Positions 23,082 to 25,162 of a stretch of 64,000 nucleotides of DNA are shown in pieces. This DNA is from Rhodothermia bacterium (GTDB lineage Bacteria; Bacteroidota; Rhodothermia; Balneolales; Balneolaceae): assembly GCA_030427885.1 (NCBI GenBank), contig JAUICM010000004.1:248001-312000 (forward strand), given 5' to 3'. Position numbers and translations under genes: made by a program. Every line of letters starts with the position of its first letter. Within the stretch, counting starts at the first letter, position 1. The notes beneath the pieces were generated by a model, which saw only the letters and a program-made list of their open reading frames with translations, was not told the origin of the DNA and ran no database searches.

Positions 23082-23943
23082 AATACGGCTGGTAAGTCCG
23101 TATCCCATCACGCATCGTTTTGTAGCGAACCGGGATTTTGCCGGGAATTCACTTCTGGCGATGATGTCAGAGAAATTTCCATTTCTGGATGAACAGGAAT
23201 GGAACAGACGTATTGAACTGGGCCGTGTGTATATCAATGGGGAGAAGGTTGAGGCTGACACTAAAATCAAGCTGGGGGATGAGATCTTTCATCACAATCC
23301 GAGAGTGGTGGAGCCATCTGTTCCTGATGAAGTTGAAGTGCTGCATGAAGAAGAGGAATACCTGATCGTTTACAAGCCGGCTCCGATGCCTATGCACCCG
23401 GGAGGCAGGTATAACAAGAACAGTTTAACAGAGATCCTTAAAGAAGAAGGATATGCGGATGTCCGAATTACCCACCGATTGGATGCGGTAACTTCAGGAG
23501 TGCTGCTGCTGGCAAAAACGAAAGAATTTGCGAAAAAGGCGACCTACTGTTTTACTCATGGTAAAGTAGAGAAAACATACCTGGCTCATGTTTTCGGGAA
23601 CCCGGAAGAGGATTCGGTAACCATCGATAGCCCAATTAAAAGAAAGCACGGGTTCGTGTTTGAAAGCCGTCATGATCTGACCGGAGCCAGAGAAGCGGTC
23701 ACACACTTTGAAGTGTTGGAAAGAAGAGAAGGATCCACAGTTGTGAAATGCAGCCCAAGAACAGGGCGGACTCACCAGATCAGGCTTCATCTTGCACATT
23801 GGGGGTACCCGATCATTGATGATCCGATCTACGGTCCCGAAGGTGATCGTTCGTCAAGAACTATGCAGAAAAGGGGGATCTCGCTTGTGAGCTCGGGGCT
23901 TGTTATTGAAGCTTTGGGAGTTAATTACACGTTAAAAGAATAG
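23029..23943 (+). CDS. RluA-family RNA pseudouridine synthase
   Basis: About 304 residues from the ATG at 23029, which I prefer over the earlier ATG at 22960 because it shortens the overlap with trhO to about 50 bases. The true domain begins at YPITHRFVANRDFAG, so an even later, non-ATG start cannot be excluded. An S4-like RNA-binding domain (RIELGRVYINGEKVEAD) precedes the catalytic domain with the RluA motif HRLDAVTSGVLLLAK (catalytic Asp), followed by KTYLAHVFG and the closing RTGRTHQIRLHLAHWGYPIIDDPIYG. The target (23S rRNA or tRNA) cannot be told. Confidence 0.88.
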   Translation: MTILSNVIFSTQLQTSHKIRLVSPYPITHRFVANRDFAGNSLLAMMSEKFPFLDEQEWNRRIELGRVYINGEKVEADTKIKLGDEIFHHNPRVVEPSVPDEVEVLHEEEEYLIVYKPAPMPMHPGGRYNKNSLTEILKEEGYADVRITHRLDAVTSGVLLLAKTKEFAKKATYCFTHGKVEKTYLAHVFGNPEEDSVTIDSPIKRKHGFVFESRHDLTGAREAVTHFEVLERREGSTVVKCSPRTGRTHQIRLHLAHWGYPIIDDPIYGPEGDRSSRTMQKRGISLVSSGLVIEALGVNYTLKE

Positions 23944-23970
23944 AGGTCACTAAGTAAACTTAGTGACCTC
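23943..23970. terminator. Perfect hairpin between convergent rluA-like and HNH genes
   Basis: Arms 23943-23955 and 23958-23970 are perfectly complementary over 13 bases with only aa between them. The hairpin begins at the last base of the pseudouridine-synthase stop, 6 bases before the HNH stop. No T-run follows in either direction, but its position suits a shared transcription end. Confidence 0.65.
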
Positions 23971-23976
23971 ATGAAT

Positions 23977-24300
23977 TTACTGTCTAATCTTACAAGTCCA
24001 ATATGGGTAATCATCGCCTTTATGGCGGTTATTTTCCCATTGTAGAGGTTGAAGATTACTCAGATCATCCCCACCTCCCTTAGATACTGGTCTTATATGA
24101 TCTATTTCCCAGCCATATTTGACTGTTTCACCATAAAGAGAGCGTTTCATTGTTGCTCCGCAATAATCTTTACGGTATTCATAAGCTGGAAGCCCAGGAA
24201 TCGGAGTTCCTTTTTGCCAAACAGCTTCGACGGTTTCTTTAGAGAATCCCGATCCGTCTTTTCTTTTACCGGGAGTTCTTAATGAATAAAAAGTATTCAT
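23977..24300 (-). CDS. HNH endonuclease-domain protein
   Basis: 107 residues. The HNH motif is clear: WEIDHIRPVSKGG (first His of the beta-beta-alpha metal site), SNLQPLQWENN and NRHKGD. The N-terminal half (FYSLRTPGKRKDGSGFSKETVEAVWQKG) resembles the leader of small stand-alone HNH proteins found scattered in bacterial chromosomes. One cysteine (DYCG) replaces the usual CxxC pairs. It lies alone in an AT-rich islet, facing a candidate structured RNA on the other strand. Possible roles are DNA repair, phage defence or a selfish nuclease; nothing here decides. Confidence 0.82.
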   Translation of the reverse strand: MNTFYSLRTPGKRKDGSGFSKETVEAVWQKGTPIPGLPAYEYRKDYCGATMKRSLYGETVKYGWEIDHIRPVSKGGGDDLSNLQPLQWENNRHKGDDYPYWTCKIRQ

Positions 24301-24328: not shown

Positions 24329-24477
24329 TCCCGAGTAGATGATTGATTCTCATATGAAATTCATCTATAATCAAAATGGAACAAGGCATAAGGTGGAATA
24401 GCCTTATGGAAAACGCGCAAAGTTTTTAAGTTCCACTAAGCGGATACTCCTCGGGAAAGGTAAGTATCCGTTTTTTT
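24329..24477 (+). ncRNA. Candidate structured small RNA with intrinsic terminator
   Basis: No plus-strand gene precedes the strong terminator at 24441-24477, so the transcript it ends must start in this gap. Helices visible by eye: agatga 24337-24342 with tcatct 24361-24366; cataagg 24387-24393 with ccttatg 24402-24408; aaaac 24410-24414 with gtttt 24422-24426. Two longer contacts could form pseudoknots: the loop tggaa 24394-24398 with ttcca 24431-24435, and tcccgag 24329-24335 with ctcggga 24450-24456 in the terminator loop. I recognise no known RNA family. Confidence 0.45.
24441..24477 (+). terminator. Intrinsic terminator (plus strand)
   Basis: Stem cggatact (24441-24448) with agtatccg (24463-24470), 14-base loop, followed directly by seven T. 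The T-run overlaps the TAA stop of the minus-strand gene at 24476. In the minus direction no T-run follows the stem. Confidence 0.75.
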
Positions 24478-24850
24478 ATGCTCTTCCTTTAATCCTCCGT
24501 ATTAGCTTAAAAAACTTCTCTCCCTCAAGTTCGATCTCAGCGACATCATATATGATTTTATCCTTTCGATAATCGAGCTCAAGTTTGTTAAAAAGATTCT
24601 TGGTATTTAGATAATAATATTCCCCGGCTTTACTAATAGAAAAGGCGCCTTTTTGTGCGCCTTCAAAAACTTTCAAGTAAAGACTTCCTGACTCGTCATA
24701 GTCTTCTCCCTTCGCAATTCCAATAGATTTACCCTCTGTTATCCCTAGTAGATTAATTGCATCCATTGAAAAACCAAGCTTGCCCGATTTATGAATCGTG
24801 CACTTGGCATTTCCTTGGATTTCATCAGCATCAAAAAATTCGAGTTTCAT
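24476..24850 (-). CDS. Hypothetical protein (124 aa)
   Basis: Not recognised. 124 residues with a beta-rich N-terminal half (KCTIHKSGKLGFSMDAINLLG, KSIGIAKGEDY, SLYLKVFEG) that recalls SpoVT/AbrB-like swapped-hairpin folds only in a general way. The C-terminal half is charged (ELDYRKDKIIYDVAEIELEG) and ends with a basic tail (KLIRRIKGRA). It sits between AT-rich sequence upstream and the candidate small RNA downstream. The coding pattern looks real (ATG start, stop after a hairpin), but the function is unknown. Confidence 0.65.
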   Translation of the reverse strand: MKLEFFDADEIQGNAKCTIHKSGKLGFSMDAINLLGITEGKSIGIAKGEDYDESGSLYLKVFEGAQKGAFSISKAGEYYYLNTKNLFNKLELDYRKDKIIYDVAEIELEGEKFFKLIRRIKGRA

Positions 24851-25162
24851 AATGAGTCTTTTACTTATATGAAATAATAATCAATTCTATTAAAAGTGCC
24901 AATACCATGAGAATTAAATTTTTAATTGTGCGCTCTCTTAAACTTCTCTTAAAATTTTTTTATAAAACTTTTTAAGTTTCAAAGTACATATAAGTAGTAT
25001 AAATATACTAATAACAGTATTTTACTATATAAAAATACTTTTTAAGGGGGCGCAAAGAAATAGAAATGAATCGAAAAGAGGAATAGATTGTTAGAGAAAT
25101 CTAACGTAATGAATTGATAAAAGACGAGCTTGAAATTTCATACGAAATCCTGAAAAAGAAAA
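24851..25162. other. AT-rich intergenic stretch without convincing gene
   Basis: About 310 bases, strongly A+T rich by eye. It holds short hairpins: agtatttt with aaaatact around 25016-25038, followed by T, and gttaga/tctaac near 25089-25104 with a gaaa loop. I see no gene on either strand. It may carry the promoters of the 124-residue gene. Confidence 0.5.

Follow-up and report, generated by a model that had tools for sequence, protein, structure and literature searches.

Within the window, by which we mean the whole 64,000-nucleotide stretch of DNA analysed here, two minus-strand genes flank a short intergenic segment. One encodes an HNH endonuclease of 107 aa (positions 23977-24300, minus strand; PF01844 and PF13395) and is followed at its 3' side by a terminator hairpin recognised from sequence (23943-23970, minus strand). 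The other encodes a protein of 124 aa (24476-24850, minus strand), preceded by a possible promoter that matches the consensus, TTGGCA-N17-TATTAT (24874-24902, minus strand). Between 24301 and 24475, neither strand contains an ORF of at least 50 aa. The earlier note had placed a strong plus-strand terminator here with nothing coding upstream of it, and the terminator is indeed found at 24438-24477. The GC content of the segment is below that of its flanks, as expected for an acquired island.

The plus strand carries what appears to be a complete transcription unit without an ORF (24343-24477), consisting of a promoter, an RNA of about 101 nt and a terminator. Since both flanking genes lie on the minus strand, this RNA diverges from the HNH gene and converges on the 124-aa gene; the U-tract of the RNA terminator touches the stop codon of the latter. 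The predicted promoter, TTGATT-N17-TATAAT (24343-24371, plus strand), is identified by its match to the consensus and sets the predicted RNA start at about 24377-24379, where the closing stem begins. The putative small RNA gene (24377-24477, plus strand) is predicted to fold into a three-way junction followed by the terminator. Stem P1 pairs TGGAAC (24377-24382) with GTTCCA (24430-24435) in both the minimum free energy (MFE) and the centroid structure. P2 is a hairpin on CATAAGG/CCTTATG (24387-24408), and P3 is an A-U-rich hairpin with GCGCAAA in its loop (24409-24427). The intrinsic terminator, evident from sequence and fold, is formed by GCGGATACT...AGTATCCG and seven T. Over 104 nt the plus strand folds with -34.9 kcal/mol (z -4.45), and none of 200 shuffled sequences folded as well.

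These results bear on the folding proposed in the earlier note. The helices that it saw upstream of the terminator are confirmed, and its tggaa/ttcca pairing is the closing stem P1. A second pairing, tcccgag/ctcggga, was to join the upstream sequence to the terminator loop and make the RNA pseudoknot-capable. We reject it because its 5' half (24329-24335) sits 40 nt upstream of the predicted RNA start and because it is absent from both the MFE and the centroid structure of the full 149 nt; by our own estimate, about 0.7 such 7-mer matches are expected by chance in 150 nt. The RNA unit does lie within the proposed 24329-24477, on the plus strand, at about 101 nt in place of 149 nt.

Promoters and terminators of this quality are rare in the window. 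Only two promoter matches with a perfect TATAAT occur in 128 kb of strand, one of which is the RNA promoter, and only four plus-strand T6 terminators of comparable strength occur in the 64 kb. A chance promoter-terminator pair 100 nt apart is therefore unlikely, at about 0.006 by our own estimate. The promoter differs from the type prevalent in this genome: the box TAnnTTTG, the sigma-A consensus of Bacteroidota (PMC9723704), precedes most of its single tRNA genes, whereas the RNA promoter follows the E. coli pattern, with TTG and TA correctly spaced but lacking the TTTG. Since a TTG-17-TATTAT candidate also precedes the 124-aa gene, the two genes would share a promoter type. Taken with the orphan units described below, the promoter, fold and terminator make a genuine small RNA gene at 24377-24477 on the plus strand likely.

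Two sequence repetitions were observed around the unit. Near-identical 12-mers, CTCATATGAAAT (24349-24360, in the RNA promoter) and CTTATATGAAAT (24864-24875, in the start region of the 124-aa gene), are accompanied by a CATATG at the HNH start, and together they are a possible shared operator. A 17-nt direct repeat (88%) links 24419-24435, in the 3' part of the RNA, with 24965-24981, an AT-rich stretch upstream of the 124-aa gene, and may be due to chance.

The 124-aa protein matches no Pfam family at E values up to 1, and no NCBIfam or PADLOC family. Its relatives occur in Bacteroidales, Pseudoflavitalea and Apibacter records and are rare in Bacteroidota: they were found in 8 of 394 phylum genomes, in 4 of 346 genomes of one order and in 16 of 320 genomes of one family, and in no viral contig. 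The AlphaFold model (pLDDT 84) shows a strand-strand-helix-strand-strand layout that is repeated, and a structure search with it returned no convincing match among solved structures. Because the predicted structure matches nothing solved, the fold lends no support to RNA binding. A first impression of an AbrB-like motif was likewise unsupported by the structure search.

At homologues of the 124-aa gene, one arrangement recurs on the opposite strand: a TAnnTTTG box is followed by 75-150 nt that hold no long ORF and then by a hairpin whose T-tract ends at or near the stop codon of the homologue. Such orphan units were seen at L012, L014, L015, L052, L059-L061 and L062-L074. Read by eye, the unit is present at 16 of 19 distinct homologues, the exceptions being L013, L075 and L076, where no RNA unit was recognisable. 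A mechanical criterion found it at 11 of the 19 homologues and at 15 of 191 other ORFs of the same loci, counts that are not independent because the loci are related to one another; one of the 15, L053, is itself a member of the 124-aa family. The units comprise at least four unrelated-looking RNA types, which track the protein groups of the 124-aa family, and the arrangement recurs across several bacterial families. Scanned against Rfam, the window RNA and the RNAs of eight relative loci gave no match at the gathering cut-off.

The window RNA shows the same position, an orphan unit on the opposite strand that ends at the 124-aa stop codon. It is placed in this group by position and not by sequence, because the covariance model of one relative type (R2, group A) does not match it and the single-sequence model built from it (R1) does not match the RNAs of the relatives. 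BLAST and R1 detected no sequence or structure homologue in the family and phylum genomes, the R1 scan covering 92 and 296 of them, respectively. Three R1 matches were discarded: at L018 the terminator alone aligned, at L051 the match falls in a broken Fic coding region, and at L019 it is at noise level. DNA similarity across 59 related genomes likewise gave best matches of 20-32 bases, to the AT-rich promoter part and in coding-like DNA. Phage and plasmid records returned only short AT-rich blastn matches, and the DNA pattern of the window RNA was absent from viral contigs.

Group A allowed the structure of one RNA type to be assessed by covariation. Folded singly, seven group A RNAs form nearly one common hairpin, with AAAG, a bulge CA, a P2 closed by a G-U pair, a variable distal stem, an apical CUUC loop and the terminator AAGAAGTCC/GGACTTCTT. 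The first alignment (MAFFT) gave a covariation score of 0.190 against 0.118. For 10 sequences, of which three were found by R2 and not used in building it, the score was 0.174 against 0.088 in shuffles, and none of 500 reached it; as the alignment was fitted to the structure, this count leans towards structure. Four pairs changed on both sides, three of them in P2, where pair 10-41 appears as AU, GC and UA. In total, 95% of cells were paired, and slid partners gave clearly lower covariation. The suggestion that this is a candidate new small RNA thus gains from the promoter, fold and terminator in the window, from the similar orphan units beside 124-aa homologues and from the covariation of one of their types.

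Scanning 276 genomes of the family in which 16 of 320 carry the protein, R2 matched nine genomes, and in seven of these the group A RNA lies beside a 124-aa gene. Of the two RNA copies in G687, one is accompanied by the decayed remains of a 124-aa gene (42% over 52 aa). In G1007 the RNA has no 124-aa protein and converges on a gene for an XRE-like regulator, close to an amidase gene. By locus, the RNA that lacks the protein is L083 and the one with a decayed protein is L085, so that the RNA can outlive the protein. No group A RNA was found in plasmids, its DNA pattern was absent from viral contigs, and the L083 RNA was not found in phages.

Group A also showed two local peculiarities. The terminator loop motif ACCCTGAGAAAGT, compared between L063, L085 and L086 and L052, L064, L066 and L083, is reverse-complemented in some, as if the terminator hairpin had been flipped between its arms; since the loop is found in both orientations, there is no strict sequence constraint there. 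Upstream of the TAnnTTTG box, L052, L064, L066 and L068 have direct repeats of approximately ATTTAAA with an 11-12-base period, suggesting a regulated promoter.

With respect to the genomic surroundings, the genes near the pair vary. Among them are a CBASS cyclase together with a TIR-STING effector (L087 and L090), GmrSD-type proteins (L088 and L097), DUF5131 (L088), AbiH (L012), DUF4417 (L014) and a C5 methylase-like gene (L098). In all group B loci examined (L092, L093 and L096), a gene of 307-309 aa follows the 124-aa gene and the RNA and may be part of the unit; the L093 copy has no Pfam or PADLOC match. A gene for a 42-44-aa protein (MSRKVTSKSVAKKASKILRN...) is divergent from the RNA at the group A loci L087, L089 and L090, before CBASS or other defence-like genes.

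We propose that 24377-24477 (plus strand) is the structured RNA half of a two-gene cassette with the convergent 124-aa gene, a reading to which we assign a probability of about 0.6. The RNA, non-coding and about 100 nt long, would be transcribed independently and bound by the 124-aa protein. Binding would restrain the protein or tune its activity, and this control would bear on neighbouring accessory or defence genes. The cassette itself would be accessory and, in relatives, often sits in defence islands. In group A, the bulge, the closing G-U pair and the apical CUUC loop are conserved and, as judged from sequence, resemble a protein-binding site more than an antisense seed; we favour a protein-binding RNA because of this conservation and because the RNA is linked to one protein family. 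For the pair, our leading guess is that it acts as a regulator or an antitoxin-like module in defence islands. A broader claim is more tentative, and we hold it doubtful as a whole: that Bacteroidota and relatives possess an undescribed system in which a protein of 120-130 aa, with two copies of a K-x-G-containing module, binds a convergent structured RNA of about 80-150 nt and forms with it a regulatory or immune core that has exchangeable defence genes alongside (HNH, cyclase with TIR-STING, GmrSD, AbiH).

Two specific modes of action were considered and set aside. Antisense pairing to the 124-aa mRNA start, as a means of control, gained no support: cognate RNA-mRNA pairs scored no better overall than foreign pairs or shuffles. 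A CsrA sponge, suggested by several GGA motifs in the RNA, is rejected as the source genome has no CsrA.

Of the other explanations, the one that survives best is an ordinary trans-acting, base-pairing small RNA of an accessory island, which would have no functional tie to the 124-aa protein and would travel with its gene on a mobile segment. Flavobacteria have documented independent small transcripts and TAnnTTTG promoters (PMC9723704), and the survival of the L083 RNA without the protein and of the L085 RNA beside a decayed one fits such independence. We nevertheless consider this explanation rather unlikely, given that the arrangement spans several bacterial families with diverged RNA types tracking the protein groups, that conservation in group A falls on the bulge, closing pair and apical loop inside a hairpin, and that special complementarity to the neighbouring mRNA start is absent.

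Less probable still is that the window holds a terminator only, serving rare plus-strand read-through at convergent genes, with no RNA gene. The lack of a sequence homologue of the RNA, a promoter unlike the usual type of the genome and the position of the terminator at a gene end would all suit this explanation. However, the nearest plus-strand gene end is at 23943, with an oppositely directed gene in between; a near-consensus promoter lies 100 nt upstream, with its predicted start at the base of P1; and the 69-nt RNA body without the terminator still has a z of -3.2.

It is very improbable that the functional element lies on the minus strand, as a structured region that separates the 124-aa gene from the HNH gene and regulates expression of the latter. 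The flanking genes do both occupy the minus strand, which itself folds (-28.9 kcal/mol, z -4.2 over 104 nt), but the plus strand has the U-tract, the promoter and the better folding energy, and in relatives the TAnnTTTG promoter is opposite in strand to the 124-aa gene.

The HNH gene, the downstream neighbour, is not conserved in the cassette. A search of 91 other genomes of the family at E 1e-10 returned no homologue of it, and viral contigs gave one 26-residue match to the protein. The earlier note had linked a guide-like RNA to this nuclease, along IscB/Cas9-like logic, and asked whether the RNA always sits beside HNH genes. The RNA does adjoin the HNH gene, and there are very weak matches to Cas9d/IscB profiles (18.5 of 375 bits and 17.8 of 175 bits). 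These are far below the cut-offs and confined to the HNH motif, and the 107-aa protein has no RuvC or RNA-binding part. In relatives the RNA accompanies the 124-aa gene, and no HNH gene was recognised adjoining the unit in the homologue loci read. A guide role is thus largely refuted, the HNH protein being a generic, stand-alone nuclease whose partnership with the RNA is not supported.

Several known systems invite comparison. Rfp18 of Flavobacterium psychrophilum is an independent trans-acting small RNA of Flavobacteriia (PMC9723704). Like the present RNAs, the Flavobacteriia small RNAs are stand-alone, structured and intergenic, and each has a promoter (TAnnTTTG in the relatives) and a terminator of its own. 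Unlike them, the present RNAs are convergent with a particular protein gene and lie in accessory regions, Rfp18 being compared by description only. In type III toxin-antitoxin systems (ToxIN, CptIN and TenpIN), the toxin gene is preceded, on its own strand, by a repeat RNA. Here too a small RNA gene adjoins a small protein gene in an accessory setting with a link to phage defence, but the RNA is single, non-repeated and on the opposite, convergent strand; the 124-aa protein gave no Pfam (E up to 1) or PADLOC match that would place it in the ToxN/AbiQ family. Retrons combine a reverse transcriptase, a structured RNA and a variable effector, and resemble the present loci in having a structured RNA and a protein beside varying defence-type genes. 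The present loci have no reverse transcriptase, and turnover of the islands would explain the variation of neighbours just as well. HEARO/omega RNAs of IscB/IsrB are also structured RNAs near an HNH gene; in the present case IscB/IsrB is absent, the RNA is much shorter and without an Rfam match, and the HNH gene is not conserved alongside.

We found no description of the RNA/124-aa pair in a literature search that most subscription journals lay outside. To our knowledge, few such bacterial RNA-protein pairs are known besides toxin-antitoxin systems and retrons. If the weaker claim alone holds, the window would add one further accessory small RNA. If the cassette reading is correct, a new structured small RNA family and its partner, a protein family that has no name, would both fall outside Rfam, Pfam and PADLOC, and the pair would recur beside defence genes across Bacteroidota, with loci and a covariance model already in hand.
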